Positions 21,002 through 61,747 of a stretch of 64,000 nt of DNA are shown in pieces. The stretch comes from Lautropia sp. (lineage in GTDB: Bacteria; Pseudomonadota; Gammaproteobacteria; Burkholderiales; Burkholderiaceae_E). The first letter of the stretch is position 1. The number at the start of each line of letters is the position of its first letter. The position numbers and the translations under genes were made by a program. Below the pieces are notes generated by a model. It had not been told where the DNA came from, did not search any database, and worked only from the letters and a program-made list of their open reading frames with translations. The stretch is taken from positions 955,464 through 1,019,463 of the forward strand of contig JAUNAC010000001.1 in assembly GCA_030527825.1 (NCBI GenBank). Reading direction: 5' to 3'.

Positions 21002-21253
21002 GGTGGTTCCTCATGTCGCTGTTTTCCCGCAGTCATTCTATAGGGAGATGTTTTTGTCTCCGAATATCCTGTTGTCAGAATCCGCCGCGGGGTTCGGTAT
21101 CAGGTTGTGCACGACCTCTTGCAGCTGCCTCTACTGGCAGAATGACAGTCCGGTAACAGCGGTTGTCTGCCTGTTCAAAGAGAGGCGAATGGGTGCTGCG
21201 CAATTTTTTTACCGAGCTGATTCGAAGGCCGAGGCTCATGCTGTCGCGAATGG
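21002..21253. other. Gap between the two GH13 genes
   Basis: 252 bp. I see a short inverted repeat GGAGA/TCTCC with an 8-base loop around 21043-21061 and no gene. Whether paralogue 1 has its own promoter here is unresolved. Confidence 0.4.
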
Positions 21254-22921: not shown

Positions 22922-23328
22922 TGGCGTATTCCTTCTTGGACGGCCTATATTGTCTCGGTGTTTATGGCATACGTATACGGTAGCGGTCCTCTGCCTTTGG
23001 GGGGGGCATTGACGAGGATAGAAGAGATCCTTTGTCTGGAAGACACGTACGACTGTGATATGGGGCAACGTGACACATCACGGATGTCTTCATGATTTTT
23101 TCCCAAGGAGCGTCATATCCGCTGCTCACGTATCACCAGACGATCGAGCAGGCTCCGCCTGTTGTTTTATAAAGGCCGCTGGTTTGAATCCCTTCATTGC
23201 TGCCAAGAAGCCGTGGGAATGCCTGGAACGACAGACAGCGGTATCCATGGGTGTTGGCGCAGTATCCGGTTCGGTGTGCAAATAACAGTGAACAATGGCT
23301 GGAGGGGCTTGGTGTTGAGGCAGTTGCA
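22922..23328. other. 407-bp gap between GH13 paralogue 2 and the binding protein gene
   Basis: No gene supported. It should hold the promoter of the GH13 pair. An 8-bp palindrome CGTATACG sits at 22972-22979, about 50 bp upstream of the start, and could be part of an operator; a run of eight G follows near 22999-23006. No classical LacI-type operator was recognised. Confidence 0.4.
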
Positions 23329-29513: not shown

Positions 29514-30743
29514 GTGATTCGATCGATTGAGGGGCTGCGTGGCCTGGCTGCGCTGATGGTGGTGTTCTTCCACGCCTTTGTCCTGGCCCGCTGGGGTGGC
29601 GCTCCCGCTGACTGGGGGATCGTCCAGAACGCCTGGCTGTTTGTCGATTTATTCTTCGTGATCAGCGGAGCCATTATGGCGGCGGTGTACGGCGATCGAC
29701 TCCGAGATGGCGGCCAGTTGCGGGCCTTTTTTATCAAAAGAGTATTTCGCCTTTATCCGTTGCATCTGATAACGACCTTCACGGCCATCGGTGCAGTGAT
29801 CGTGGTGCAGGGGGCCAAGTGGGCGGCAGCCCGGATGGGCGTCCACCTGGGCGGTGAGGAGCCTTTTGCGGTCGAATTCTTCAAACTGTCCTATTTTCTG
29901 CTGGAGTTGGTGATGCTGCAGGGTGTGGGCATCATGACCGAGGCATTGCACAACTACCCGTCCTGGTCGCTGTCGGTCGAATTCTGGATGTACCTGATTT
30001 TTGCGGTTTTCTTCTTCAGGATTCGAAGTGTTCGCTGGCGCCTCGTGGTCAGCGTGCTGCTGGTGGTCCTTTGCCTGCTGTATTTTTTTAGGCCAGGGTC
30101 GGGGCTGCCAGCCCTCGCACTGGCTCCCGATACTCACAGTTTGCCCCGAGGACTGTTCAGTTTTTTCATCGGTGTGCTGGTCTGGCATGGTTGGCAGCGG
30201 ATACAGCGTGACGCCGCCTGCCCGTCCCGGAAGGGGACGGCCCGGCAGGAATGGCCGGGGCTTTCGTTGATGCAACTGGGGCTGGCTCTGATGGCGCTAG
30301 GTCTGGTGGCCAGCCGTGCGGTGCTCGGGCAATGGGTCTACTGCATTCCATTCATCTTCGGTCTGTGGGTTTTGTCACTGCTGCCTGACCGGGGGGCGGT
30401 GGCCTGGGTGCTGCAGACGCGCCCGCTGCAGTGGCTAGGCGTACACAGTTATTCCATCTATCTCGTGCACGTCACCGTGCTGACATTCTTCGACTGGCCG
30501 GGCCGTCATGTCAGTGTTCCGGGTAAGTATGGTGTTGTGGTGGTCTATCTCATCGTGGTGATACTGGCCTCGGCCTTCAGCTATCGCTTCATTGAGGTGC
30601 CGTGGCGAGAACGGGGGCGCCGCCTGGCCGGGAAGGGAAACAGGCGACAGGAACCGGCCGGAGAGATTCCGGCTGGTCCTTGCAGCAGTTTCACACCCCT
30701 CGCTACAGCCAAGGCTGATGATGGTGCAGGTCGTCGTCCATGA
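29514..30743 (+). CDS. Acyltransferase 3 (OafA/YrhL-type) membrane protein
   Basis: 409 residues with about ten membrane segments. The family motif is at the N-terminus (IEGLRGLAALMVVFFHAFVL), followed by FVDLFFVISGAIM and RVFRLYPLHLITTFTA, and a C-terminal VHSYSIYLVHVTVLTFF. These integral membrane enzymes O-acylate sugars of LPS, capsule or exopolysaccharide. It starts with GTG at 29514, with AGGAG eight bases upstream. Divergent from glnE, and its last 41 bp overlap the 3' end of the repeat surface protein gene on the other strand. A role in decorating the cell surface that the adhesin contacts is inference. Confidence 0.88.
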   Translation: MIRSIEGLRGLAALMVVFFHAFVLARWGGAPADWGIVQNAWLFVDLFFVISGAIMAAVYGDRLRDGGQLRAFFIKRVFRLYPLHLITTFTAIGAVIVVQGAKWAAARMGVHLGGEEPFAVEFFKLSYFLLELVMLQGVGIMTEALHNYPSWSLSVEFWMYLIFAVFFFRIRSVRWRLVVSVLLVVLCLLYFFRPGSGLPALALAPDTHSLPRGLFSFFIGVLVWHGWQRIQRDAACPSRKGTARQEWPGLSLMQLGLALMALGLVASRAVLGQWVYCIPFIFGLWVLSLLPDRGAVAWVLQTRPLQWLGVHSYSIYLVHVTVLTFFDWPGRHVSVPGKYGVVVVYLIVVILASAFSYRFIEVPWRERGRRLAGKGNRRQEPAGEIPAGPCSSFTPLATAKADDGAGRRP

Positions 30744-33700
30744 GGCTGGTCGGGATGCTCTTGACGACATGGACGTTGCCGCCTTCTTCCGAGAGGGCGA
30801 CGTCAGTTTCTGTCGTGTTGGGTTTTTGCGTGTTGCCTGGCGCGTGTGGGTCGTCCCGGTTGGACTGTTCTCCTTCGTAGCGAACCCGTCGGCCTTCGAC
30901 TTCGATGAAGCTGAAATGTCCGCCACTGTTCAGAAGCGAGTTCCAGTGGATGTGGGAGAGTTCGTGCTCACCCACTACGGTACCGACCCAGAGGATCTCG
31001 GACTTTTCTCCCTCTTGCAGCCTTAGCGGCTCCTCGTAGTTTTCGTACTCAATGACGAATCCGGATAGTGTTTGTGCCGTGCTTCCTGTGTGGAAATATT
31101 GCTCGGCTGTTTCGTGGAACCTGTCGAACAGGTTGAGCTTGAGCCAGCCCTTTTCTTCATCGTTATCAAGCGAGAGCAAATGCCCGTGCAGGGACTCGGC
31201 CAAAGCGCTCGCCTGCGTTTTGGTGATTGCATGGTCGGTGTGGATGATTTCGTAGGCGGTTGGTTTTATGTTGCTGACGTTTTCGTGCCAATTGATGACA
31301 CGCTGTTTTGTCGGGCTTTCATAGGATTCCACGCCTTGAATCTTGAAGAATCGTCCAGTCGTTGATGCGTTGCCGACAAAGGTGGCGGGATCAATAAAAG
31401 TGATGGCGTCATGGGCCAATACCGGAGCATGTGGTGTGCCCTTGGCCACTGGGTCTTCGGTGATGGTGATGGTCTGCGGAGTAGTTCCGGCAATGGCTAT
31501 GTCGAAAGCGTCCAGCGCTTCAAAGCTGAATGTTCCCCCGGTGTTATGACTGGCGTCCCAGGCAAGGTTGTCCAGATCCTCGGCTTTCACTCTGTCTCCA
31601 ACGTGCAATTCGGTCTGGATGGCATTGCCGGATGACAGGCCCAGGGCGGAGTGGCTGGTTGCTGTATCGCCGTCTTCATGGATGGCGGTGATGCGAATGC
31701 CGCCGGCTGGAGCACGAGCAGGAGTATTCCCAGCGGTCAGTTCGTGATTGAAATGCAAGAGTTGGTTGAATGGCGCCTTGATAGGCGCGAGTGTGGCCGG
31801 ATACAAGGGGGTAATAGGTGATTCATGAATGGTGACGGTGCGTAGTTGAGCGCCTTTAATGGGCTGGTTACTTGCATCAAGCGCGATGAAGGACAATGAA
31901 CCGCCGTTGTTGTGGCTGGCATCCCAGTGGAGGTGGGCGAAGTCAGCGGCGGAGATGATCTGTTCGGCCTTGACTTCGGTGGTAGTGGCGCCTTGTACGA
32001 GGGTCAGTGCCGAGTGAGCGGTGTCGGTATCGTTTTGCTCATTGACTTGCGTGATGAGGACAGCGGAAGGCTGGTGAGCGGCATTGGCCCCCTGGAACAC
32101 CTGGGCGTCGATCGCTCTAGACTGGTCATGGGCGACGGTCTGGGTGGCGGCGCCACTGTAATCAGGGGCGACAGGTGATTCGTGAACCGTGAGGGTGCGA
32201 GGAACGCTACCCTCAATCGGCAGGTTATCCGCATCCAGGGCGGTGAAGGAGAAGGAGCCGCCGTCGTTGTGGCTGGCGTCCCAGCGGAGTTTGTCGAAGT
32301 CGGCGGCGGAGATGGTCTGGCCAGTCCTGACTTCGGTGGTGGTGGCACCCTGGAGGGTCAGTGCCGAGTGGTTGGTGTCGGTATCGTTTTGCTCGTTGAT
32401 CTGGGAGATGCGGACAGCGGCAGGCTTGTGAGCGATGTTGCCGCCTTCGAACACACGTTTATGGATCTCGATGGTCTGGTCGTGGGCGACGGTCTGGGTG
32501 GCAGAGCCGCTGTAGTCAGGTGCAACGGGTGATTCGTGAACCGTGACATGCTGTGCTGTCGCTCCCAGGACAGGAGAATAGGATGCGTCGGCGGCACCGG
32601 CCTTTTCTGGGTTGTCGGGAACCACCGGGGTGAAGTCGAAATGGCCACCGTTGTTGCCGGCGGAGTCCCAGCGGATGTTGCCGAAGTCCTGCCGGGAGAT
32701 GATGCTGCCGTCCTGCAGGGGGGTGTCTGCGCCGGTGTTGTGATGCAGGCGCAGGGCAGCGGGAGCGCCGGAGAGTGCGTCGGCCGGGTTGAGGTTTGAG
32801 ATCCTGATGTAGTCGGGCTGGTGATCGGGATCCGTGCCATTGAAGGTGGCGGCACTGAATGTCAGTGTAGCGTCGTGGGCGACGATCTGCTGGGGCTGAC
32901 CGGCATCGTAGTGGGGTGGCTGCGGGTGCTCGTGAACCGTGACGGTGCGTGACTGGCTGCCTTCGATGTGCTGGCCGTCAGCATCCAGGGCGGTGAAGGA
33001 GAAGGAGCCGCCGTCGTTGTGGCTGGCATCCCAGCGGAGTTTGTCGAAGTCGGCGGCGGAGATGGTCTGTCCGGCCTTGACCTCAGTAGCCGTGGCACCG
33101 TGCATGAGGGTCAGTGCCGAGTGGTTGGTGTCGGTATCGTTTTGCTCATTGATCCGGGAGATGCGGACAGCGGCAGGCTTGTGAGCGATGTCACCGCCTT
33201 CGAACACACGTTTATGGATCTCGATGGTCTGATCGTGGGCGACGGCCTGGGTGGCAGGTGCGCTGTAGTCGGGTGCGACAGGGGATTCGTGAACGATGAT
33301 GGTACGAGGTGCACTGCCTTCGATGGGCTGGTTCCTTGCATCAAGCGCGATGAGGGAGAAGGAGCCGCCGTCGTTGTGGCTGGCGTCCCAGCGGAAGTTG
33401 GCGAAGTCGGCTGCGGTGAAGATCTGTCCGGCCTTGACTTCGGTGGTGGTGGCACCACGTACGACGGTCAGCGCTGAATGAGCGGAGTCGGTATCGCTTT
33501 TCTCATCGACATGAAAGATGCGAACCGCAGCGGGCTTGTGCGCGGGATTCGTCCCTTCGAACATCTGGACGTCGATCGCTTTGGATTGGTCATGAGGGAG
33601 GGTCTGCGTGACAGGGCTTGTGTAGTCAGGTGGAATGGGCGACTCGTGAATCGTGACGGTACGAGCTGCGCTGCCTTCGATCGGCAGATTGTCCGCATCA

Positions 33701-36700
33701 AGCGCAGTGAAGGAGAAGGAGCCACCGTCGTTCTGGCCGCTGTCCCAGCGGAGATTGGCGAAGTCAGCGGCGGAGATGGTCTGTCCAGCCTTGACTTCGG
33801 TGGTGGTGGCGCCCTGCACGAGGGTCATGGCAGAGTGATCTGTGTCTGTGTCGTTAAGTTCATTGACCTTAGAGATGCGGATAGCGGCAGGCTTGCGAGC
33901 GATGTCGCTGCCTTCGAACAAACGGGCGTGAATCGTGGTGACCTGGTTATGGGCGACGGTCTGGGTGGCAGAGCCGCTGTAGTCAGGTGCAACGGGTGAT
34001 TCGTGAACCGTGACATGCTGTGCTGTCGCTCCCAGGACAGGAGAATAGGATGCGTCGGCGGCACCGGCCTTTTCTGGGTTGTCGGGAACCACCGGGGTGA
34101 AGTCGAAATGGCCACCGTTGTTGCCGGCGGAGTCCCAGCGGATGTTGCCGAAGTCCTGCCGGGAGATGATGCTGCCGTCCTGCAGGGGGGTGTCTGCGCC
34201 GGTGTTGTGATGCAGGCGCAGGGCAGCGGGAGCGCCGGAGAGTGCGTCGGCCGGGTTGAGGTTTGAGATCCTGATGTAGTCGGGCTGGTGATCGGGATCC
34301 GTGCCATTGAAGGTGGCGGCACTGAATGTCAGTGTAGCGTCGTGGGCGACGATCTGCTGGGGCTGACCGGCATCGTAGTGGGGTGGCTGCGGGTGCTCGT
34401 GAACCGTGACGGTGCGTGACTGGCTGCCTTCGATCGGCAGGTTGTCTGCATCCAGGGCGGTGAAGGAGAATGAACCGCCGTTGTTATGGCTGGCATCCCA
34501 GTGGAGTTTGTCGAAGTCAGCGGCGGAGATGGTCTGTCCAGCCTTGATTTCGGTGGAGGTCGAACCTTGTACGAGAGTTAGTGCTGAGTGATCTGCCTCG
34601 GTATCGTTTTGTTCGTTGACCTGAGTGATGCGAACCGCAGCGGGTTTGTGTGCAGCATCTGACCCGTCGAGGAGGCTGCTGCTGATGGTTGCAACCTGAT
34701 CATGAGCGATAGTCTGGGTGGCAGAGCCACTGTAGTCAGGTACGACGGGTGATTCGTGAACCGTGACGGTGCGTGACTGGCTGCCTTCGATCGGCAGGTT
34801 GTCTGCATCCAGGGCGGTGAAGGAGAATGAACCGCCGTTGTTATGGCTGGCATCCCAGTGGAGTTTGTCGAAGTCAGCGGCGGAGATGGTCTGTCCAGCC
34901 TTGATTTCGGTGGAGGTCGAACCTTGTACGAGAGTTAGTGCTGAGTGATCTGCCTCGGTATCGTTTTGTTCGTTGACCTGAGTGATGCGAACCGCCGCGG
35001 GTTTGTGCGCAGCATCTGAGCCCTCGAGGAGGCTGCTGTTGATGGCTGCGACCAGATCATGGGCGACGGTCTGGGTGGCAGGTGCACTGTAGTCAGGCGC
35101 GACAGGGGATTCGTGAACTGTGACGGTGCGTGACTGGCTGCCTTCGATCGGCAGGTTGTCTGCATCCAGGGCAGTGAAGGAGAAGGAGCCGCCGTCGTTG
35201 TGGCTGGCGTCCCAGCGGAGTTTGTCGAAGTCGGCGGCGGAGATGGTCTGTCCGGTCTTGACTTCGGTGACGGTGGCACCCTGCACGAGGGTCAGAGCCG
35301 AGTGAGCGGTGTCGGTGTCGTTTTGCTCATTGATCTGGGAGATGCGAACTGCAGCAGGTTTGTGCGCAGCATCGGATCCGTCGATCAGGTTGCTGTTGAT
35401 GGCTGCGACCAGATCATGGGCGACGGTCTGGGTGGCAGGTGCACTGTAGTCAGGTGCGACAGGGGATTCGTGAACCGTGACACGCTGTGCTGTCGCTCCC
35501 AGGACAGGGGAATAGGATGCGTCGGCGGAACCGGCCTTTTCTGGGTTGTCGGGAACCACCGGGGTGAAGTCGAAATGGCCACCGTTGTTGCCGGCGGAGT
35601 CCCAGCGGATGTTGCCGAAGTCCTGCCGGGAGATGATGCTGCCGTCCTGCAGGGGGGTGTCTGCGCCGGTGTTGTGATGCAGGCGCAGGGCAGCGGGAGC
35701 GCCGGAGAGTGCGTCGGCCGGGTTGAGGTTTGAGATCCTGATGTAGTCGGGCTGGTGATCGGGATCCGTGCCATTGAAGGTGGCGGCACTGAATGTCAGT
35801 GTAGCGTCGTGGGCGACGATCTGCTGGGGCTGACCGGCATCGTAACTGGGTGGGTGCGGGTGCTCCAGAATCGGTACGATATGTGACATGGCACCCGGCA
35901 AGGGTTCATGGCTATCGGCATCTACTGCTATGAACTGGAAACTGCCCCCGGCATTGTGTCGGCTGTCCCAGGACAGCTTATCGAAATCGCTGGCCAGGAC
36001 CAGGCTCCCCTCGGCAAGAGGGATTGCGTTGCGGCCATTCTCCTGTCGAAGCATCAATGCAGGTTCGGATGTATCGCTGCTGTTTGGGCTGGCAAATACA
36101 TTGATTTTCTGGATCAGGATGGCTCTTACAGTCGCGCCGTTCGCGGCTGTAGAAAAAGTTGTTGCATCCAGCACGGTTTCCGCGTTGTGCGAAACCGCCC
36201 GTGGTTGATCCGTCACCTCTGGTGTTGCGGGGCTGGAAGCGGGGGGTGCAGGAGGGGGGGCTTCGGATGAAGGCGGTGTTGCGGGCGCAGGCGAGGGGTG
36301 TGGCGCGGGCGTTTCTAAAGCAGGTGGCGGGGTCGGTACGGGCTTTCCACCCGGCATGTCATGATGATCTGGATTGGACTGGGCCAGTGTGTGCGTGGCG
36401 CTATCGTCCCGGGCGACATCCTTGCTGCCGCCTGCAGCAGCCGCAGCCCCGGCTGCTGCGAGCCCGGCCAGACCGGCACCCAGCATCCAGGGGCTGGCAG
36501 CCATGCCAGAAGCAGCGCCATTGGCTGCGAGAGGGAGCGCCGCAGTTGACCCAGTTGCCGGTAGTAACGGCAAAATGCCATGTCCATCCGGCATACCCAG
36601 GACGGCTTCCTGATAATCAATGGATGCAGCGGATTGCTGTCCGCTGGACAGCAGATCCGAAGCTGGCTCGTCGACCAGCACGGCCTCCTGGTAGTCGATC

Positions 36701-36768
36701 CGGGAAATGTCATCCAGCTGCGGCTGTTTTGCCTGCTGGTTTTCCGACGTTTCCTGGGTATGGGGCAT
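30703..36768 (-). CDS. Giant Bap-like repeat surface protein with lectin-like C-terminus
   Basis: 2021 residues from the ATG at 36768, which has AAGGAGA 11 bases upstream (a further ATG at 36954 has none). Order: acidic N-terminus with the octapeptide IDYQEAVL twice (24-31, 50-57); a hydrophobic Ala/Gly segment (92-113) as in Bap-type adhesins; a Pro-rich linker (about 125-180); a first divergent unit; then twelve beta-sandwich-like units of about 119 residues (type A) or 133 (type B). Type A units contain HKPAAVRIxxxNEQNDT, GQTISAADFDKLRWDASHNDGGSFSF and VTVHESP. Near the C-terminus one unit is interrupted by a shortened C-type-lectin-like domain (about 1837-1908, ending GFVIEYENYEEPL). The last residues, LMDDDLHHHQPWL, match the relatives. 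Probably a secreted or surface adhesin; no signal peptide is seen, so type I secretion is likely but unproven. Confidence 0.85.
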   Translation of the reverse strand: MPHTQETSENQQAKQPQLDDISRIDYQEAVLVDEPASDLLSSGQQSAASIDYQEAVLGMPDGHGILPLLPATGSTAALPLAANGAASGMAASPWMLGAGLAGLAAAGAAAAAGGSKDVARDDSATHTLAQSNPDHHDMPGGKPVPTPPPALETPAPHPSPAPATPPSSEAPPPAPPASSPATPEVTDQPRAVSHNAETVLDATTFSTAANGATVRAILIQKINVFASPNSSDTSEPALMLRQENGRNAIPLAEGSLVLASDFDKLSWDSRHNAGGSFQFIAVDADSHEPLPGAMSHIVPILEHPHPPSYDAGQPQQIVAHDATLTFSAATFNGTDPDHQPDYIRISNLNPADALSGAPAALRLHHNTGADTPLQDGSIISRQDFGNIRWDSAGNNGGHFDFTPVVPDNPEKAGSADASYSPVLGATAQRVTVHESPVAPDYSAPATQTVAHDLVAAINSNLIDGSDAAHKPAAVRISQINEQNDTDTAHSALTLVQGATVTEVKTGQTISAADFDKLRWDASHNDGGSFSFTALDADNLPIEGSQSRTVTVHESPVAPDYSAPATQTVAHDLVAAINSSLLEGSDAAHKPAAVRITQVNEQNDTEADHSALTLVQGSTSTEIKAGQTISAADFDKLHWDASHNNGGSFSFTALDADNLPIEGSQSRTVTVHESPVVPDYSGSATQTIAHDQVATISSSLLDGSDAAHKPAAVRITQVNEQNDTEADHSALTLVQGSTSTEIKAGQTISAADFDKLHWDASHNNGGSFSFTALDADNLPIEGSQSRTVTVHEHPQPPHYDAGQPQQIVAHDATLTFSAATFNGTDPDHQPDYIRISNLNPADALSGAPAALRLHHNTGADTPLQDGSIISRQDFGNIRWDSAGNNGGHFDFTPVVPDNPEKAGAADASYSPVLGATAQHVTVHESPVAPDYSGSATQTVAHNQVTTIHARLFEGSDIARKPAAIRISKVNELNDTDTDHSAMTLVQGATTTEVKAGQTISAADFANLRWDSGQNDGGSFSFTALDADNLPIEGSAARTVTIHESPIPPDYTSPVTQTLPHDQSKAIDVQMFEGTNPAHKPAAVRIFHVDEKSDTDSAHSALTVVRGATTTEVKAGQIFTAADFANFRWDASHNDGGSFSLIALDARNQPIEGSAPRTIIVHESPVAPDYSAPATQAVAHDQTIEIHKRVFEGGDIAHKPAAVRISRINEQNDTDTNHSALTLMHGATATEVKAGQTISAADFDKLRWDASHNDGGSFSFTALDADGQHIEGSQSRTVTVHEHPQPPHYDAGQPQQIVAHDATLTFSAATFNGTDPDHQPDYIRISNLNPADALSGAPAALRLHHNTGADTPLQDGSIISRQDFGNIRWDSAGNNGGHFDFTPVVPDNPEKAGAADASYSPVLGATAQHVTVHESPVAPDYSGSATQTVAHDQTIEIHKRVFEGGNIAHKPAAVRISQINEQNDTDTNHSALTLQGATTTEVRTGQTISAADFDKLRWDASHNDGGSFSFTALDADNLPIEGSVPRTLTVHESPVAPDYSGAATQTVAHDQSRAIDAQVFQGANAAHQPSAVLITQVNEQNDTDTAHSALTLVQGATTTEVKAEQIISAADFAHLHWDASHNNGGSLSFIALDASNQPIKGAQLRTVTIHESPITPLYPATLAPIKAPFNQLLHFNHELTAGNTPARAPAGGIRITAIHEDGDTATSHSALGLSSGNAIQTELHVGDRVKAEDLDNLAWDASHNTGGTFSFEALDAFDIAIAGTTPQTITITEDPVAKGTPHAPVLAHDAITFIDPATFVGNASTTGRFFKIQGVESYESPTKQRVINWHENVSNIKPTAYEIIHTDHAITKTQASALAESLHGHLLSLDNDEEKGWLKLNLFDRFHETAEQYFHTGSTAQTLSGFVIEYENYEEPLRLQEGEKSEILWVGTVVGEHELSHIHWNSLLNSGGHFSFIEVEGRRVRYEGEQSNRDDPHAPGNTQKPNTTETDVALSEEGGNVHVVKSIPTSLMDDDLHHHQPWL
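32484..32967 (-). repeat. 484-bp identical repeat, copy 1
   Basis: Read line by line, this stretch is identical to 33951-34434 (copy 2, offset 1467 bp). It covers a complete type B unit and its borders. A third copy at about 35483-35846 differs at only a few positions. Confidence 0.85.
33951..34434 (-). repeat. 484-bp identical repeat, copy 2
   Basis: Second copy of the repeat at 32484-32967, with no difference seen. Identity at all codon positions points to recent duplication or gene conversion. Confidence 0.85.
34398..34998 (-). repeat. Tandem ~240-bp identical stretch, 357-bp period
   Basis: The stretch 34398-34638 recurs at 34755-34995 with no difference seen (offset 357 bp, 119 codons). 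A third, slightly diverged copy starts at about 35112, again 357 bp further. These are adjacent type A units of the adhesin. Confidence 0.8.
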
Positions 36769-37255
36769 CCGGGTTTCGTCTCCTTGTCGGGCAATCTGCC
36801 TGGTCTGTTCCCCTGGATGCGTCAGGTGCCTGGAAAGGACGTCGCGGTGCCCGGCACTGTCTGCCCCGACTGATGTGTCATCTGTCTTTCCGTGAATTGT
36901 CCTGGTGTTGGCTGCTTTGCTTGATACGGACGGATATACGCGGTGGGATGTCATGATGATCAGTGCCAGAAGGCGGTTTCTTCGCGAGTGTTAGTGATGT
37001 TGCCGAAGGGGGAAGGGGGGATATGGGAGAACGGCACGGACGGCGGACGGGAGCTGTCCGGTGACACGATGATGTATGGCGCTTGCAACGGAACCTTCGT
37101 GATGTGCTGGCCCGAGGCATCTGCGGATCAAAAAAGGCCGCTTACCGAAGGCAAGGGGCCTTTGTGAAACTTGCCCCGGACCGGCGGCGCGTGCTTTTTT
37201 CTGATCCTGTCACTGTCGGCTGGCTGGCGCAGCCGTGAGCAGGGAAGATGGCGGA
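36769..37255. other. 487-bp region upstream of the giant adhesin gene
   Basis: No supported gene. It should carry the adhesin promoter and leader. A 7-bp inverted repeat AAAGGCC/GGCCTTT (37133-37139 and 37157-37163) with a 17-base loop is visible, along with several G-runs. No clear -35/-10 pair was found. Confidence 0.4.
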
Positions 37256-38605
37256 TCAGATCAGGTTGGTGTGCATCAGTTGATCGTCGAGTAGCGTTTT
37301 GATGACATGGGAGGAATCCACCGCATGGAACGACTGCTGCTCCATGGCAGGGGGCCTGTCACTCCGCTCGGCGCTGCGTTCACTGATGGCGGGGTGCCGA
37401 CCTCTTGATCATGACCGGCTTGTGGGGCAGGAGCAGTAGCCTCTGTTACGGTGACGGTCTGGGTGGTATGTCCGGCCATAGGTTGTCTGTCACCGCCCAG
37501 TGCGATGAATTTGAAGCTGCCACCTTCATTGTGTGCGCCGTCCCAATGCAGCTGAGCGTACTCTGTGTAATCCAGCGTGCTTTGGGAATCATCGCCTGGG
37601 ATGATATTGATGCCCTGGGCCTGATCTCTGGTCAGATACAGCGCACGCTGGCCAGCGCCATTCGTCGGAGAGATTTTGGTGATCTGGATGTAGACCAGCT
37701 CCTTGGTTGCATCCGTGCCCTTGAAGAGGGTATCGGTGTCGTAACCATTGATGCCGTGAATATGTAGGATTTTCAGTGCATCAGGCGCCTTGGCCTCGTC
37801 TTGGCCCATGAAGATTGATTTGTCCAGTTGGTGTCCGGCTTCGTCATACGCAACCTGGACAGTTTCATGCTTGTCTGGATAGACGCCGACCTTCGCATCT
37901 GAAGGGGGTGCGGCAGCAGGCGGGCTGGCGGGTGCGGCAGCCGCCTCGGTGATGGTGGCGGTCTGCTCATCAGAGCCCAGAATGGGGACGCCATCCGCAT
38001 CCGGTATCGAGCTGGTGAACCGCATCGTGAGCTGCCTGAAGGCATGGGCGTGACTGTCTGGGTAGACGGGCGATGGTGCCTGTTTCACGACGGGAACGAT
38101 GTAGTGGGTTGCGCCATTGATGGCCGTGCCCTGGGCATCTGAGACGGCGACGAACTTGATTGACGAATGCCGGCGCTGGAGTGCCAGCCTTGTCGTCCAA
38201 GAAGACTTTTGCATCGATCTCGTGCGACTGATCGTGGCCCACATGCTGCTTCATTCCGTCCAGGGTGACATTCTTCGATGATTCCTGTGTGTTGTCAGGT
38301 TGGTGGCCTCCTGTGCCGGGCCTGGTGTCCGCACCCGGTGTGTCCTGATGAACGGTGCCGCTCGGAGGTGTCGGATTCGTTGCAGATGGGGCGTCGGCGC
38401 CTGACTCGGAAATGGTCGGTGTCCGTATGGGGCCATTCTCGATGAGCTGGAGCTGGTCGCCGACCAGATACGCCGCCTGGAACTGGATGGCGCCATGAGC
38501 ATTTTGTGAAGCGCTGAATTCATCCTTGGTCAGGAAATCGTCCGCATTCACCGGCCTGGCGTCTGAACCGCTACCAATGGTCAGTGGTGATTTGTAGTTG
38601 TTGTG
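37256..38605 (-). pseudogene. Decayed remnant of a third lectin/repeat adhesin
   Basis: On the minus strand the frame opens without a start at NNYKSPL (about 38605), the end of the lectin-like domain of the neighbours, runs as VNADDFLTKDEFSASQN to about 38170, then shifts frame to continue as SIKFVAVSDAQGTAINGAT to about 37390, and shifts again to end PPAMEQQSFHAVDSS ... KTLLDDQLMHTNLI with a TGA at 37256-37258. That tail aligns with the C-terminus of the 1502-residue paralogue. Within it, two repeat units are fused start-to-end, each missing its middle (VFLDDKAGTPAP joined to SIKFVAVSD; AHAFRQLTMRF joined to TSSIPDADGVPILGS). No N-terminus, no start codon context and two frameshifts make this a non-functional relic. 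Confidence 0.8.
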
Positions 38606-38842
38606 TTTTGCTGCCGCTCGATTCCTATGCTGGTAGTCTTGCTTCGAACCAGAGAGGGAAGGGGACGGCTGCTCGTTTTGGCCCGTTCAACGTGTTCTTG
38701 GCGTCGGCTTGGCGCATCGGGTCTGTCGTCCCGCTCGGATCGCGGGCTATGTTCTCTGGCCCGGCGGTATACTGGGCTGCCTGTCGAGCGTGGCAGCGCG
38801 CTCCCTGGCAGGGGTCGAGGGATGAGGAATGGTGATCAGAAT

Positions 38843-41485: not shown

Positions 41486-44400
41486 TTACAGCACCGGCTG
41501 ATGATGGTGGAGCAGGTCCTGTTCCAGCGTATCGACCAGCGTTGTCAGCTGGGCAGCATGGTATGACAGCGACTTCGACTCGGGTCCCATGGCGGCAGGG
41601 GCATCGGCTTCGGTCACCGTCACTGTCTGTTCAGGCGAGTCTGAGATGGCTTTGAAGTCGCCATCCAGTGCCTGGAACTTGAACGTACCGCCTTTGTTGT
41701 GCGCGGCGTCCCAGTGCAGTTTGCCGAATTGATCGCTGCTCAGGACTGAGCTCTTGTCACTCGGATCGCTATTGGCCACTATGTTGTGGTGGTGGTCACT
41801 ATCTCCCTTGTCGAGGTACAGGGCTGTCTTCGCATCCGCAGTCTGGCCGTCATCCGCAGTTGGCAGAATTTCAGTGATCTTGATGTACATCGGTGCCTTG
41901 TTGGCATCTGTACCTATGAACAGGCTCTTGTCAAACTGAAGGTCGCCATCGTGCGTGCTGACTTTCTGCTCTGCCAGCGGCGACGAGTAGACGGGCGCCT
42001 CTGCCACTTCATGAACATTGAAGGTATGCTCAGTAGCGCCAGTGATCTCCTGGTGGCTCGCGTCGACTGGTTTGAAGGTGACCGTATAGGTACCACTTTC
42101 GTGGTTTGATGCGCTGGCATCCCAATACAGTTTACCGAAATCAGCCTTGTCAACGTATTGCCCACCGTTCAGCGTCACGTCCGCTGCTCCGCCTTTGTCA
42201 AGCTTCAGCACAGCACCGGTATCCTGATGTCCCGGATCTTTGACGGAGATGATTTCCACCGCATCGGGGATCTTCGCGTCAGTATCGCCACTTAGCAGCT
42301 TGGCTTCCAGATTATGATGGGCTTCGGCGATCTTGACGTCGACTTTTACCGGGGCGGCAGGATATTCACCTGTGTGTGCTGCCGCTTGGGGTGGTGCGGC
42401 TTCGTGGGCGCCTTGTTGATTGGCGTGTTCATCACCGCTGGGGTGTCCATCAGCCTGAGCCTTACCTGATTGGTCAGCAGGGGTTTCGCTGCCAGCCTGG
42501 CTGCTGGGGTCGTTTGCGGGCGGCTGGGTTACGTTGCCCTGTTGTTTCTGATCACCCGATTGTGCATTGCTATCAGCCTGTCCGCCTGGGTTGCTGTGGT
42601 CAGCTGCAGGAGGATCGCTCTGCTGATTGGTTTGTTCGCTACCGGCCTTGGGTTGCCCGTCAGCCTGAGCTTTGCCTGCCTGGTCAGTGGGGGCTCCGCT
42701 ACCAGCCGGGCTGCTGGGGCCGCTGGCTGCAGGTGGGGTTCCGCTGCCCTGCTGAGCCGAGTGCTCTCCACCGGTTTGGGATGAGTCACCTGCTTGTGCC
42801 TTGTCACCCTGGGTGGGATCTTTGCCAGCCCCTTGATCAGCGCCCTGGGAAGCGGGGGCTTCGTGAATGCTGACAATGTGGTGGCCGGCAAATGCGGCAC
42901 CAGTTTTGTCAAGGGCGTCAAATGTGAAGGAGGATCCACTGTCAGCGGATTTGCTGGCATCCCAGACGAGTTTGCCGAAATCCTCTTTCTTGATGACCTG
43001 ATTCTCCTGAACGGGGCTGATGGTACCGTCGTCAGCCTTGAGAGACAGCGCGCCTGGGCTAACGGTTCCGACGATCTTGATAGCGTCTGGCGGTGTGCCA
43101 GTACCTTTGAAAATGTCGGCACTGATGTTGGCTTTGGCATCATGCCCCACGTCCACTTTCAGGCTATTGCCGTCCCCATAGGTGGGGGGCGTTGGCTCGT
43201 AGATGGTGACAGTCTGTACCTCGGAACCCTTGATGGCGGCTTCGTGTTTATCGAGTGCCTGGAAGGAGAATGAACCACCTTCGGTTTTGCTGGCGTCCCA
43301 TTCAATCCGGCCTAAGTCATCGTGAGAGATGATGCTACCGGTCTTCAGTATTTTCGGTGTCCCCTCGCCAATGACGGCAGCGGCCGCACTGGGTTTCAGT
43401 AGCAAAACAGGTTGGGTTGTGTCGGCGTTGGCACCATCTTTGATGGCTGTAATCTTGATGAAAGCGGGTTCTGCCTTCGAATCGCTGCCAGTGAAGATGG
43501 TTTTGCTCAGATCAGTGGTCTGGTCATGAGTGACGGACTGTTCGGGCTGGTGTGCTGGATAGTCAGGCGCGGCGGGTTGTTCGAAAATGGTGATGACCTG
43601 TTTATCAGCATCGACGAACGGGTGCCCATCCTTATCAAGTGCGGTGAAGCTCAATGTCGTGCCAATGCCGCTACCTTTGCTTGCTTCCCAGACGAGTTTT
43701 CCAAAATCCGCAGCCATGACTTTGTCGCCGTTATGGAGCGATGTTTCCTGTGCGCCATCGACTTTAAGCAATGATCCCGAGTGGATATCGTCAATACGAA
43801 CGGCTGCCGGTGAATGACCATCCTTGCCCTGGAATTCAGTTGCGGCGATTTTGACCTTGCCGCCGTGTTCAACCGTTATTTCCGGGTGTCCCGCCGAGTA
43901 GTCAGGCTTGACCGGTTGCTCGTAGATGGAGATGGTCTGTTCCTTGACATCAGCGACGGGGTGTTCGCCTTTTGCGTCACTGACGACCTGGAACTTGATG
44001 GTGCCGCCTTCGTTCTTGGAGGCATCCCAGAACAGTTTGTCGAAGTTGGCCTTGTTGATGATCGAGCCATCGGCCTGGGGGATGGTTTCGTTGCCATCGC
44101 GCATCGACAGCGGATTGGCACCATCGTCACCGGACGTGGGTTTCACTTCGATGATCTTGATGTATTCCGGCCCCTTGGCAGCATCCGCGCCCTGGAAGAT
44201 GGCTGCGTCCAGTTTGTGCGCGGCGTTGTCGTGAGACGTGACGCTTTCTGCAGCATTTGAGTCTGGGTAGGCGGGGTGCGGGGTGTTGGTGTTGGTGTTG
44301 GTGCCACCTGGCTGGCCACCTGCCGCGCCGGAGGCATCCGGGTTACCGTCCGTGTTCGCCGGGCCGGTCTGGCTGGCATTGCCAGCATGCTTGATATCTG

Positions 44401-45994
44401 CCGACTCTGTCAGGACGAAGGAGTGTTCCTTGCTGCCTTCCAGCGGCTTGGCGGTTTGTGCATCGTCGCTGCTGACGGCCTGGAAGGAGATCTTGCCGGT
44501 GCTGTTGGTGGTGCTGTTCCAGACCAGTTTGCTGAAGTCTTCGGCCTTGATGATCTGCCCTTCGGCGACTGGCTGGCCGTTCAGGCTGAGCGGCAGTTTG
44601 TAGTTGTTGTATTCGATGACAAATTGGCTGAGCTTGCCGCTGTAGTCATAGAGGCCGGCCTTGGCATCCTCGGTGTTGCCATTGAGGATCATGGCGCCGA
44701 AATCCGCTTTGTGGGTTTCCGCACCGGGGGTAGCGTTTCCGTCGAAGGGGCCGTGCTTGTCGTTGACGCTGGCGCCATAGGCTTTCCAGCTGTCTGCCGA
44801 GAGGGGCTTGCCGTTGACCCAGTTCCAGCCGGTATCGGGTTTCTCTGCGCTGGGGTCCTGTTTCAGGCCGACCCAGGCACCGTTCTTCAGGTCATCGAGG
44901 TTAGCCGGGTTGGCGCCGACTTTGCCTGCCAGCCCGCTCAGGACGAAGTCAGCTTCGGCCTTGCTGTCGAATGCCACCAGTTTGCCACCCAGTTCCTGTG
45001 CTTTCTTGGCGGCTTCTTCCCAGGTCATGCTCTGTCCGGCAGGAAGCTTGTAGACCTCATAGGCGGTGTTGGAGGCAAGGGCATCATGTGTTGCGATGGG
45101 CGCACCGTCGGCAGGAAACTCGCCGAAATGGACGATCCGGGATCCGGTTTCGCTGCTCTGGGCTGCATCAATATGCGTAATCTTGACGAATTGAACTGCT
45201 GTGCCCTGCGGGGCGGAGTTCTTGAGAGCCGATCCGAGGGTGTCGCCGAGGTCTGTGTAGCCTTCAGATGCGACGTGTGCCCCTTTTTGGTCTGCGGAGG
45301 CATTAGCCTGGGCGTGTGGAAGCGTGTCAGGGTCAGCCGGGGAGGTTTGTGGGTCAGTGTGGTCTGCACCTGCGGGTGGTTTGCTGCCAGATTGATCAGC
45401 GCCAGGTTGCGCGTTGCCGGATTGCGTGTTGTCAGGTTGATTGATGCCGAGGCCTTGCTGGTCTGCCCCCTGGCTGTTGGTCGTGCCGGATGGGTTGGTG
45501 GTTTCGTGCTGGTGGCCGTCGCTGTTTGGTTTGTTCAGGGTGGGCTGATGCTGGGCCAGTGGCTGGCTGCTGCTGCTACCGCCGCCGCTGCCACCACCAC
45601 CTGCTGCTGCTGCGACGGCAACCACGCCCAGAACGCCTGCGCCGATGGCCAGCGGACTAATGGCGGCTGCGCCGGTTGCGGCGCCTGCAGCAGCACTCTC
45701 GGCTGTGCCGACAGCGGCCACTTCAGCGGCTGAGGCTTGCACGTCAACAGCTGGTGCCACGGCTTCGGTAGCGTCTACAGCTTTGACGGCGTTTTCTGTA
45801 TGGACGATATGATGAGCAGAATCTGCTTGGGCCGTTTCAGCATGAGCTACCGGATGTTTGGCATGTTCCTTGTCCAGTACCGATTTTTGCGCGCTGGCCG
45901 GTTTGGCTGTTGGTGCGGAATGAGAGACTCCGGAAGACGAGGCAGTCGCGTGTTTTACTGGCGAATGTTTCGTCATTTGATTCTTGCTTGCCAT
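41486..45994 (-). CDS. Bap-like surface protein with C-type-lectin-like domain and repeats
   Basis: 1502 residues from the ATG at 45994, which has AAGGA about ten bases upstream; the frame extends a further 76 codons without support. Order: basic/Ala-rich N-terminus; hydrophobic Ala/Gly segment with a poly-Gly/Ser end (about 101-142); Gln/Gly/Asn-rich linker (to 240); the first half of a repeat unit (245-285); a full C-type-lectin-like domain (about 310-462: SMTWEEAAKKAQELGGKLVAF, AWVGLKQD, TGWNWVNGKPLSADSW, ending FVIEYNNY); the second half of that unit (to 530); four units (about 575-1050); a Gln/Ser/Gly/Pro linker; two more units; and the tail DTLEQDLLHHHQPVL. Units contain VWDASKxxGGxxSFxALD and VTIxE. 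Probably a secreted adhesin binding glycans; no secretion genes are adjacent. Divergent from the cNMP-binding gene. Confidence 0.86.
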   Translation of the reverse strand: MASKNQMTKHSPVKHATASSSGVSHSAPTAKPASAQKSVLDKEHAKHPVAHAETAQADSAHHIVHTENAVKAVDATEAVAPAVDVQASAAEVAAVGTAESAAAGAATGAAAISPLAIGAGVLGVVAVAAAAGGGGSGGGSSSSQPLAQHQPTLNKPNSDGHQHETTNPSGTTNSQGADQQGLGINQPDNTQSGNAQPGADQSGSKPPAGADHTDPQTSPADPDTLPHAQANASADQKGAHVASEGYTDLGDTLGSALKNSAPQGTAVQFVKITHIDAAQSSETGSRIVHFGEFPADGAPIATHDALASNTAYEVYKLPAGQSMTWEEAAKKAQELGGKLVAFDSKAEADFVLSGLAGKVGANPANLDDLKNGAWVGLKQDPSAEKPDTGWNWVNGKPLSADSWKAYGASVNDKHGPFDGNATPGAETHKADFGAMILNGNTEDAKAGLYDYSGKLSQFVIEYNNYKLPLSLNGQPVAEGQIIKAEDFSKLVWNSTTNSTGKISFQAVSSDDAQTAKPLEGSKEHSFVLTESADIKHAGNASQTGPANTDGNPDASGAAGGQPGGTNTNTNTPHPAYPDSNAAESVTSHDNAAHKLDAAIFQGADAAKGPEYIKIIEVKPTSGDDGANPLSMRDGNETIPQADGSIINKANFDKLFWDASKNEGGTIKFQVVSDAKGEHPVADVKEQTISIYEQPVKPDYSAGHPEITVEHGGKVKIAATEFQGKDGHSPAAVRIDDIHSGSLLKVDGAQETSLHNGDKVMAADFGKLVWEASKGSGIGTTLSFTALDKDGHPFVDADKQVITIFEQPAAPDYPAHQPEQSVTHDQTTDLSKTIFTGSDSKAEPAFIKITAIKDGANADTTQPVLLLKPSAAAAVIGEGTPKILKTGSIISHDDLGRIEWDASKTEGGSFSFQALDKHEAAIKGSEVQTVTIYEPTPPTYGDGNSLKVDVGHDAKANISADIFKGTGTPPDAIKIVGTVSPGALSLKADDGTISPVQENQVIKKEDFGKLVWDASKSADSGSSFTFDALDKTGAAFAGHHIVSIHEAPASQGADQGAGKDPTQGDKAQAGDSSQTGGEHSAQQGSGTPPAASGPSSPAGSGAPTDQAGKAQADGQPKAGSEQTNQQSDPPAADHSNPGGQADSNAQSGDQKQQGNVTQPPANDPSSQAGSETPADQSGKAQADGHPSGDEHANQQGAHEAAPPQAAAHTGEYPAAPVKVDVKIAEAHHNLEAKLLSGDTDAKIPDAVEIISVKDPGHQDTGAVLKLDKGGAADVTLNGGQYVDKADFGKLYWDASASNHESGTYTVTFKPVDASHQEITGATEHTFNVHEVAEAPVYSSPLAEQKVSTHDGDLQFDKSLFIGTDANKAPMYIKITEILPTADDGQTADAKTALYLDKGDSDHHHNIVANSDPSDKSSVLSSDQFGKLHWDAAHNKGGTFKFQALDGDFKAISDSPEQTVTVTEADAPAAMGPESKSLSYHAAQLTTLVDTLEQDLLHHHQPVL

Positions 45995-57942: not shown

Positions 57943-60267
57943 CTATGCCTTGCCGGACGTCGGGCGTCCTGCCGAAGATTGGGCTGTCCGGCTTCTGGTT
58001 GTGGTGCTCCCTGTCGCTCGTGGTGTACTGGCTCGTGTTCGGGAGCTGCCTGGGCTGGTGGCAGAGGTGCGGCGCTTTTTCCCTTTGTCGCCTTTGTCGG
58101 CCGCTTCCGCTGTGCTGGTCACTTTGGATGCGGTTTGGGCTGCTCGGGCCTGGCCAGCGTCTGGAGCCAGCGCTGCTCCGGCTATGGGCGAGGAGGATGC
58201 CTTGGTGCTGCCCTCCGCGGACTCTGTTGACGGCGGTGTGAGTGCAGCGGCGGATGTCTGAACGGGTTTGAGTACCAGGATACCCAGTGGTGGCAATGTC
58301 AGCTCCAGTGAGTAAGGGCGCCCGTGCATGCTTTCTTCTGTTGCATCGATGAAGCCCTGGTTACCGACTTCAGTGCCGCCGTAGATCGAGGCGTCACTGT
58401 TGAAGAGTTCCTGCCATCGCCCTCCCTGTGGTGCACCGAGGCGATAGTTATGCCGGGGTATGGGGGTTCCGTTGAAAACAACCATCAGGGTGTCATCAGG
58501 GTTGTTGCCGTGGCGCAGGAAGGCCAGCACGCTTTGGGCGCTGTCATCCGCACTGATCCATTCGAAGCCGTTGCTGTCGAAGTCGCGCTGATGAAGGGCG
58601 GGCTGAGTCCGCATCAGGTGGTTCAGTGCGCCGATCAGGTGCTTGATTCCCACGTGGTAATAGGTGTCAGCGGCGTCCCAGCTGATGCTGCCTTCGTGGG
58701 CCCATTCGGTCCATTGGCCAAATTCACCCCCCATGAACAGCAGTTTCTTGCCTGGGTGTGTCCACATCAGGCTGTAGAGCAGGCGCAGGTTGGCAAATTT
58801 TTGCCAGTCATCGCCAGGCATCTTGTTCAGCAGGCTGCCTTTGCCGTAGACGACCTCATCATGGGACAGGGGCAGGACAAAGTTTTCGTTGAATGCGTAG
58901 TACAGGCTGAAACTGAGTGCGTTCTGGTGGTAGCTGCGATGTACCGGGTCCTTTTCGAACCATGAGAGGGTATCGTGCATCCAGCCCATGTTCCATTTCA
59001 TGCCGAAACCCAGCCCATTGAGGGTTTCGGGATTGTCGTTGCTGTGGCCGTCCCATGCAACCGGCCGTGAGACGCCTGGCCAGGCGGTGGACTCTTCTGC
59101 GATGGTCTGCACATCCGGAAAGTCGCGGTAGACGCTTTGGTTGAGCTGACGCAGGAAATGGATGGCTTCCAGATTCTCGCGGCCGCCGAAGCGGTTGGGA
59201 ATCCATTGGCCGTCCTTGCGCGAGTAGTCAAGGTAGAGCATGGATGCGACAGCATCAACCCGCAGGCCGTCAATATGGTATTGGTCAAGCCAGAAAGCGG
59301 CGCTTGAGAGCAGGAAGCTGCGTACTTCGTGCCGCCCGTAATTGAAAATCCAGCTGTTCCATTCCGGATGGAAGCCCTGACGGTGGTCTGCGTGCTCGTA
59401 CAGTGCGGTGCCGTCAAAACGGGCCAGTCCATGCGCGTCACCCGGGAAATGGGAGGGTACCCAGTCCAGGATGACGCCAATGTCATGCTGGTGCAGATAA
59501 TCGACAAATGCCTTGAAGTCGGCCGGACTGCCGTAGCGGGAGGTGGGAGCAAAGTAGCCTACGGTCTGGTAGCCCCATGAGCCATAGAACGGATGCTCGG
59601 TGATCGGCATCAGCTCGACGTGCGTAAAGCCAAGCGACTGTACATGTTGTACCAGTTTGGGGGCGATTTCGCGATAGTTCATGAAGCCGCCGGGGTTGTC
59701 TGCTGGCCGCATCCACGAACCCAGGTGGCATTCATAGATGCTGATGGGGGCGTTGAAGGCATTGACCTGGCCGCGGCGCTGCATCCAGTGTTCGTCCTGC
59801 CATTCATAGGATATATCGACAATCCGGGTGGCGGTACGCGGCGGCTCCTCCCAGGCGAAGCCGAAAGGGTCACCTTTTTCCAGCCATTCTCCAGTGGGGG
59901 CGGAGTGGATGCGGTATTTATAGCAATCGCCAGCTGATGCATGGGGGATGAAGCCCTCCCAGATACCGGAACTGTCACCCCGGGCCGCGAGCGGGTTGAT
60001 TCCGTGCTGCCAGCCATTGAAGTCGCCGATGACTTCGACTTCGCGGGCGTTGGGGGCCCAGACGGCAAACCAGCAACCGGGCTCGGGTCTGGCATCTTGT
60101 CGGGTGGCGAAGCTGCAGGGATGTGCGCCCAGCCAGCGATACAGCCGGTTGTTGGTACCTTCGCGGAAGTAGTAGATATCGTCTGGGGTACAGACGGGGG
60201 GGGCCTGGAGTGCCTGTACCAGGCCGGTTGAGCCTTGTTTGTCAGGCGAGTTGTTCACCGTAGTCAT
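57943..60267 (-). CDS. glgB: 1,4-alpha-glucan branching enzyme
   Basis: 774 residues from the ATG at 60267, which has GGAGG at about 7 bases. The N-terminal GlgB-type CBM48 region (about 90-180) precedes the GH13 barrel: [20 protein letters not shown], the nucleophile Asp in [19 protein letters not shown], the acid Glu in [13 protein letters not shown], and [15 protein letters not shown]. The C-terminus carries an unusual 105-residue Ser/Thr/Ala/Arg tail (SKASSSP ... RPTSGKA) not found in standard GlgB. It introduces alpha-1,6 branches into glycogen. The start overlaps the sbcB end by 26 bp, and no other glg gene is in the window. Confidence 0.93.
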
Positions 60268-61747
60268 AGAGAGCCTCCAGCAGCCGTTGGCTGTGTTCAT
60301 CGTCTTGGGACAGCGACTGGTTAAGCACGTCCAGACGATCGGCGTAAGACGCTAAGGTCATGGTGCTGCCGGCCCCCTGATGGAGTCTGGCGTGACAGTG
60401 GGTCAGCCAGCGCTGTTTTTCTGCAGCATTGAGAATAGCCGGAAATTGCCTGGCGCGGTACCGGAAAGACAATTCCTCAAGTCGGGGATCTTCAAAAGAT
60501 GGCGTCGGAACGTATTCAGGTGAGACGCGATCCGGGCCAGTGCTGTCGGCGGATAGCTGCGCGGAATCGGCAGCGGCTGATCCGGCGCTAGCGTTCTGCC
60601 GGTTGCGCCATTCATCCAGCCTGCGACGATCGGCACTGCTGATGAACCCGCCATACAGGTCGATGTCTACATCCAGAGTGCATGGGCAAGCCGGGCGAGA
60701 TTCGTAAACCTGCGACCAGTGTCCGGCGAGCCTGGCGGTTATGCGGCGTGCTATGTCAGTGTGACGCTGGATGGCTGCCATGTCGATCTGCCAGCGCTGG
60801 ATGATCTGGTGGTTCAGGATTTTCAGGTTACTGATGACAATCGGGGATCGGTTGACATGGATGCTCCTGATTGGCAGGCGCGGTGTATCTGGAGGCAGCT
60901 CATCCCGGCTGGCAAACAGGCGCGTCCGCATCTGCTCGACACTGAGGTCGGTCAGCAGGTTCGGGTCGAATGCGAGATCCCAGACCAGCAGTTCATTTCG
61001 GTTGGTGGGATGGGGGGCCAGAGGCCATACCACGGCCATGCCTCCCCGGTCCGGGCCGTACATGGCGGAAATGTGGATGAAGGGACGATGGTGACCGATT
61101 TCTTCCAGAACCCGGTGCTTGTGGCGCAGTGCCAGACAGAAGTCCCACAGACGTGGCTGGCGTGAGCGGATGAGCTGGGCCAGAGCAATGGTCGCACGAA
61201 CATCCGAGAGTGCATCATGCGCCTGCTCATGGGCCAGATGATTGGCGATGCTCAGGTCTTCGAGACGGAAAGATGGACGGCCGTCGTCATAATGCGGCCA
61301 TTCGATGCCCTCTGGACGCAGGGCTGCGGCACAACGCACGACATCCAGCAGGTCCCAGCGGCTGCATCCATTGCGCCACTCCCGATCATAGGGGGGCAGC
61401 AGCGTTCGCCAGAACAGATGGCGGCTGACTTCGTCATCAAAGCGGATGGAGTTGTAACCGGCACCGATCGTGCCACTACGGCCCAGCTCAGCCAGGATAC
61501 GTTCTGCAAAACGGTATTCAGGCAGCCCTTTGTGCAAGCAGAGCTGAGGCAGAATGCCTGTGAGCAGGCAGGCCCCGGGATCAGGAAGATAGTCGGGCGC
61601 CGGTTGACAGTGCAGCATGACCGGTGCGTCAATCTCCCTTAGGTCGAGGTCGGTACGGATGCCGGCGAACTGCGCCGGCCGGTCCATACGCGGGTTGCGC
61701 CCGAAGGTTTCGTAGTCGTGCCAGAAAAAGCTGGTGGTTTCGCTCAC
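60242..61747 (-). CDS. sbcB: Exodeoxyribonuclease I
   Basis: 501 residues. The N-terminal DnaQ-like exonuclease domain has the DEDD residues in [38 protein letters not shown] and [14 protein letters not shown]; the ExoI SH3-like and helical C-terminal domains follow ([10 protein letters not shown], then [17 protein letters not shown]). It degrades single-stranded DNA 3' to 5' in recombination and mismatch repair. It starts with GTG, overlapping the lldD stop (GTGA), without an own ribosome binding site, which indicates translational coupling to lldD. Confidence 0.95.

Follow-up and report, generated by a model that had tools for sequence, protein, structure and literature searches.

A 64,000-nucleotide stretch of the Lautropia sp. 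genome (assembly GCA_030527825.1, contig JAUNAC010000001.1, positions 955,464 to 1,019,463) – referred to here in its entirety as the window – encodes large repeat proteins in which a C-type-lectin-like domain (CTLD) is nested inside a single repeat of the stalk. The nesting is confirmed as a true feature of these bacterial proteins; it is conserved and, at the sensitivity used, genus-specific. The CTLD homology, the predicted fold, the nesting, the existence of three size classes, the restriction to Lautropia, and the loss of the classical sugar-site motifs are all read from sequences or structure models. On balance, we favor the explanation that these proteins form a Lautropia-specific family of large repeat adhesins, probably surface-displayed, with the CTLD spliced into a stalk repeat as a docking domain; export, orientation, and docking are the proposed parts of this explanation.

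The CTLD is clearest in a protein of 1502 residues (41486..45994, on the reverse strand, as are all family features given below). The Pfam profile PF00059 matches residues 321-403 with an E-value of 4.1e-6 and 27.9 bits (cut-off 22.6), spanning only model positions 1-71 of 107, and this is the sole match in the genome; none of 14 control genomes has one. The conserved core, from AYE to FVIEY, occupies residues 311-462 (44609..45064) and includes the β1-α1-α2 elements, WVGL, WNW, and a divergent long loop. The predicted model has the overall CTLD fold, with Mincle, CL-K1, DC-SIGNR, and others as best structural matches, and the long loop is variable in sequence and of low model confidence. An initial annotation, made from the sequence alone, had read a CTLD at residues 310-462 or thereabouts, and the profile search that it proposed and the predicted fold both bear this out. 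The insert as a whole probably spans residues ~280 to 464, starting ahead of the core, because structural alignments to CTLDs begin at residue 42 of the unit (protein residue 274) and a conserved strand runs from R286 (~45119-45139), with the arginine kept in seven of eight full-length units.

The repeat that receives the insert is ~120 amino acids long, β-rich, and weakly cadherin-like. Foldseek searches of the PDB with the repeat gave cadherin extracellular (EC) domains as the best matches, all of them weak (E-values 0.01-0.06, probability up to 0.84); searches with nested units were filled by CTLD matches and say nothing about relatives of the stalk. No Pfam or NCBIfam stalk-repeat model matches the repeats, and the 'Bap-like' label of the initial annotation stands as a resemblance only.

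Evidence for nesting comes from a repeat profile of 121 positions, for which 33 frames of Lautropia genomes supplied 187 complete plain repeats. The second half of a repeat follows the CTLD in all eight full units (from model position 55-68 to 109-121; 24.8-46.3 bits), and no complete repeat precedes it. In profile-against-profile comparison the region before the CTLD matches model positions 16-65 (E-value 1.7e-6; score 33.6, with 17.2 the best of 100 column shuffles) and the region after it positions 57-121 (E-value 1.6e-20), while the CTLD itself has no match to the plain repeat in the same type of comparison. In the 1502-residue protein the first half, through its third strand, lies at 45158..45280 and the second at 44405..44596. 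Across all 39 CTLD units, a second half follows 38 and a first half precedes 26 at a lax 4-bit level; the one unit without a second half within its frame is at residue 1107 of the L035 frame. A structure model of a plain repeat together with the C-terminal nested unit of a second window protein (predicted local distance difference test score 81, predicted template-modelling score 0.53) has an identical strand order in the plain and the nested unit, and in the latter the CTLD elements lie after the third strand and ahead of the LxL strand. The two halves are therein predicted to form one sandwich, on grounds of strand order and homology and not of strand pairing. These complementary halves, together with the modelled strand order, agree with the proposal in the initial annotation that the CTLD interrupts one repeat.

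Some of the evidence points the other way. In single sequences the first half is weak, scoring 4.5-20.1 bits with an E-value below 0.02 in four of the eight full units; that of the window's own unit is not significant (4.5 bits, E-value 4), and single-sequence first-half matches run on to model positions 60-93, past the split point and overlapping the second half. These observations count against nesting and favor an independent CTLD standing in tandem between two ordinary repeats. Such an arrangement is nonetheless highly improbable, with a second half alone (from position 55-68) following the CTLD and no complete repeat preceding it in any full unit, half profiles that are complementary save for about nine columns and score far above the shuffled controls for the first half, and a model of the second protein that keeps the strand order of an intact repeat around the insert.

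The nested CTLDs come in three size classes sharing one common junction: full (158-170 amino acids), mid (101-136), and mini (77-98). These classes hold 36 of the 39 units, leaving aside two with no end motif in range and one with a 235-amino acid gap. The mini is the last domain in each of the 12 frames that have it and is present in seven of nine Lautropia genomes, and seven of the eight full units stand alone in short frames with no array. Mini and full CTLDs are clearly homologous over the first 63 columns (E-value 2.7e-17; score 95.5, with 18.0 the best of 60 shuffles), and a weak second stretch reaches to the end (E-value 2.2e-4). As modelled, the mini retains only the lower part of the fold (β1-α1-α2-β5 plus one leading strand) and has no WIGL, long loop, or upper lobe; the mid has no long loop.

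The window's example of a mini is in the second repeat protein (30703..36954), a 2083-amino acid open reading frame (ORF) corresponding to the 2021-residue protein of the initial annotation. Thirteen plain repeats, located with the repeat profile (31456-36234), are followed by the C-terminal nested unit, in which the mini core (31045..31257; profile and model) is preceded by a further modelled strand (31291-31308). The first half of the interrupted repeat (31315..31410) is defined by modelled secondary structure, its profile score being only 2.4 bits, and the second half (30898..31029) by both profile (23.4 bits) and model. The recurrence noted initially in this protein is real; its description as a shortened form is not supported, as the mini is a conserved class and looks like something other than a product of decay.

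The shared junction of all copies suggests that the domain was inserted once and then duplicated and resized to give the full, mid, and mini forms, in which the mid would have arisen by loss of the long loop and the mini by loss of the upper lobe. In the tree, a single supported branch has all the minis on the same side. The full unit of the window sits among mid units (a 13-row group with support 95/96), so the tree neither separates full from mid units nor gives a direction for the size change; the G005_L040 unit forms a long branch. There is about an even chance that the mini stands by itself as a half-CTLD, its conserved lower lobe folding within the loop of a cadherin-like repeat that forms the last stalk domain, and that with the mid and full forms it makes up a graded three-size series of one inserted domain. 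If so, the series amounts to a natural experiment that shows how much of the C-type lectin fold is able to exist on its own and to serve anew as an adhesin tip.

The initial annotation also suggested a displayed glycan-binding head on a stalk, which would correspond to a classical Ca2+-dependent lectin. According to excerpts of PMC7618208, canonical C-type lectins use EPN or QPD, another glutamate, and WND to hold sugar at Ca2+ site II. A motif search found neither [EQ]P[ND] nor WND in any of the eight full CTLDs. In the alignment, LPxD or variants take the place of EPN, and (Y/F/S)D that of WND, the EPN glutamate position being L, I, M, or G and the WND asparagine position Y, F, or S in all eight; a string fitting [EQ]P[ND] does occur in one of the 12 minis, but not as part of a long loop. 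All 36 units assigned to a size class are free of cysteine. With EPN/QPD and WND absent and cysteines lacking, no classical Ca2+/sugar site is predicted, and glycan binding as initially proposed finds no backing in these motifs. A classical lectin does draw some support from the nearness of the fold to Mincle, CL-K1, and DC-SIGNR, from the retained WVGL and WxW, from the aspartate kept in LPxD at the EPN position, and from E194 and D218, plausible counterparts of the additional glutamate and the WND aspartate at site II (site residues as excerpted in PMC7618208). We consider it unlikely, given the missing motifs, the absence of a long loop in mid and mini forms, and the position of the window protein's domain on the N-terminal side.

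It is also doubtful that the CTLD forms are structural spacers or caps that stiffen or end the repeat array with no specific ligand. The conservation of the mini as last array domain despite its missing WIGL, long loop, and upper lobe would fit a spacer, as would the variability and low model confidence of the long loop in full units. Against this, the loop residues P184, D186, E194, and D218 (window unit numbering) are invariant in all eight full units, which is unexpected in a mere spacer, and most full units stand in short frames where there is no array to stiffen. Binding of a ligand in a non-canonical manner is most likely, and the remaining acidic residues make a modified metal site possible. 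A diversity-generating retroelement was considered as a source of loop variation and rejected, with no reverse transcriptase match (PF00078) in the genome at an E-value of 0.001 (three of the 14 controls match).

How these proteins would reach and stay on the surface is suggested by several features. An LssB-type exporter is found above cut-off in nine of nine Lautropia genomes, and in the window's genome it adjoins OEP and HlyD genes, ~210 kb from the window's adhesins. Among 34 family ORFs chosen from the list of family frames, 28 have within their first 450 residues a 19-residue stretch with a mean hydropathy of at least 1.5, and the C-terminus of many is a short tail, either acidic or rich in leucine. 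An N-terminal segment of the SPxxIGxGVLG..AAAAGG type and a C-terminal tail of the LLDD or LLHHHQPxL type are common across the family, and are possibly a signature for secretion and retention. In the 1502-residue protein, hydropathy places the segment at 45614..45670 (the SPLAIGAGVLGVVAVAAAA region), followed by poly-Gly. From the exporter, the hydrophobic stretch, and the C-terminal tails we infer type I export with N-terminal retention. LapG-controlled release of the LapA type was considered and rejected, as the genome has no match to LapG (Peptidase_C93, PF06035) at an E-value of 0.001, compared with one of the 14 controls.

With an N-terminal anchor, the C-terminal mini would be the tip of the second protein and the full CTLD of the 1502-residue protein would lie near its base, since it stands on the N-terminal side, ahead of six plain repeats. 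The idea of a displayed head consequently suits the former and not the latter, and a glycan-binding head has only partial support overall. After its N-terminal segment the 1502-residue protein has a linker, the nested unit, four plain repeats (42860..44278; individually 43919-44278, 43580-43915, 43196-43576, and 42860-43195), a low-complexity linker, two more plain repeats (41609..42370; 42008-42370 and 41609-42001), and a C-terminal tail, all of the repeats being located with the repeat profile.

Together these features suggest the following scheme. The CTLD was presumably spliced into the loop between the third and the LxL strand, each protein having one such unit or a few. The two ends of a CTLD lie close together, and insertion is therefore possible without breaking the stalk. 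The proteins would be exported through an LssB/HlyD/TolC-type type I system and held by the N-terminal hydrophobic segment, with the repeats as stalk. The nested CTLD may then offer a docking surface for a partner cell, a protein, or a non-canonically bound glycan in the mixed-species oral biofilm. In long proteins the C-terminal mini would be a distal cap; full domains are carried by short proteins or, as in the window, on the N-terminal side.

The family is confined to Lautropia in the genomes searched. A search with the window unit found 11 of 101 genomes – all nine Lautropia and two other Burkholderiaceae (G010 and G051), the latter matching in the CTLD part only. A unit profile found six of 399 genomes of the order Burkholderiales, namely four Lautropia plus G152 and G362 with the CTLD part only, the G362 (L076) match being known by profile range only. 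Among 369 genomes of the class, that of the window alone gave a match to the plain repeat, which was also found in four of five further Lautropia genomes, G004 being the exception. Candidate nested units outside the genus were rejected on inspection by eye, as contigs of Poribacteria, Saprospiraceae, an uncultured bacterium, and Ruminiclostridium show CTLDs without the Lautropia repeat. A protein of the same order (L075 of G152, 1501-1806) has a CTLD keeping EPD and WND, outside any such repeat. Plain-repeat frames also occur at G003:C90, G003:C54, G006:C10, G006:C86, G002:C158, and G001:C1:1530866, and the counts of CTLD units exclude them. In G004 (81% complete; L036), a short frame beside glnE carries a single full nested unit, and there is no plain repeat at an E-value of 1e-5, an arrangement that is possibly ancestral. 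This genome also has the most diverged glnE among the Lautropia compared (54% over one stretch).

The window's own genome is 2.8 Mb in six contigs. The genes flanking the cluster – glnE and genes for an acyltransferase, a carbon-nitrogen (CN) hydrolase, tldD, and a cyclic nucleotide monophosphate (cNMP) protein – lie beside it in seven of eight congeners, not in G002; within the stretches examined they are on both sides in G001, G007, and G008, and their order differs in G005 and G006. Between the 2083-amino acid ORF and the CN hydrolase gene is a broken paralogue split over frames (37276..38608), with clear repeat pieces at 37441-37890. At 38405-38608 it has a second half-repeat, weak at 9.2 bits, that bears, by eye, the post-lectin junction NNYK.PL. 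The CTLD profile found no CTLD in its three frames (best -4.1 bits); the lectin relic initially described there comes down to this post-lectin half-repeat. Some units of the 13-repeat array look identical or nearly so (e.g. the 132-amino acid units at ORF residues 866-997 and 1355-1486), a sign of duplication in the recent past or of gene conversion. For the same ORF, three Pfam models (SAF, SatD, and DUF7419) exceed their cut-offs, with no or one stretch significant alone; they do not represent stalk repeats and are probably sums of short repeat matches. Elsewhere in the window (19223-23068 and 57943-60300) are two α-amylase-family proteins and a branching-enzyme-like CBM48/α-amylase-C protein, and Rfam gave nothing at gathering threshold in the window.

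Relative to the CTLDs of PF00059 (e.g. the carbohydrate-recognition domains of Mincle, DC-SIGNR, PLA2R, and DEC-205), the Lautropia domain lacks cysteines, EPN/QPD, and WND, has a longer divergent loop, and sits inside a β repeat, with loop or upper lobe lost in mid and mini forms. CSPG-repeat proteins of the CBCP/FREM1 type are animal proteins, CBCP being presumably a FREM1-type protein. Excerpts of PMC514892 describe an NG2/CSPG4-like ectodomain, a Calx-beta domain, and one CTLD together in CBCP, and are silent on nesting of the CTLD. Intimin and invasin (Intimin_C) likewise present a CTLD-like domain in a bacterial adhesin. Theirs is appended after an Ig-like domain in a protein with an outer-membrane barrel, whereas the Lautropia CTLD is inside a repeat and Pfam finds no barrel. 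An excerpt of PMC8286594 calls Intimin_C a distant relative of C-type lectin domains. The Bap1 and RbmC proteins of Vibrio cholerae combine a β-prism with a β-propeller and have no repeat array, in contrast to the CTLD within a stalk repeat. Their lectin domain is inserted in the scaffold. An excerpt of PMC10102183 presents Bap1 and RbmC as biofilm adhesins of modular build, in which domains with a lectin fold are distinct from the scaffold. The Lautropia proteins resemble type I secreted adhesins of the LapA/BapA type in being large repeat proteins with no evident signal peptide (by eye) and with an N-terminal hydrophobic and glycine-rich segment, and the genome encodes an LssB exporter. However, the Lautropia genome lacks LapG, and the proteins have no Pfam RTX repeat match and no Pfam or NCBIfam model for their stalk. 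Among the papers listed by literature searches, no title or abstract opening dealt with a Lautropia adhesin or described a CTLD nested in an adhesin.

Lautropia is reported to occupy the center of cauliflower-like consortia in plaque, where its partners are Streptococcus, Haemophilus/Aggregatibacter, and Veillonella (PMC8306857, excerpt), and the family is a concrete candidate for how it holds partner cells. The mini, with the lower lobe only, is the most unusual piece; with it, a fold that has been widely studied gains a reduced form, as predicted by modelling, and the series clearly exemplifies how a domain can change size while its point of insertion stays the same. The family also corrects the easy equation of a C-type-lectin match with Ca2+-dependent sugar binding.
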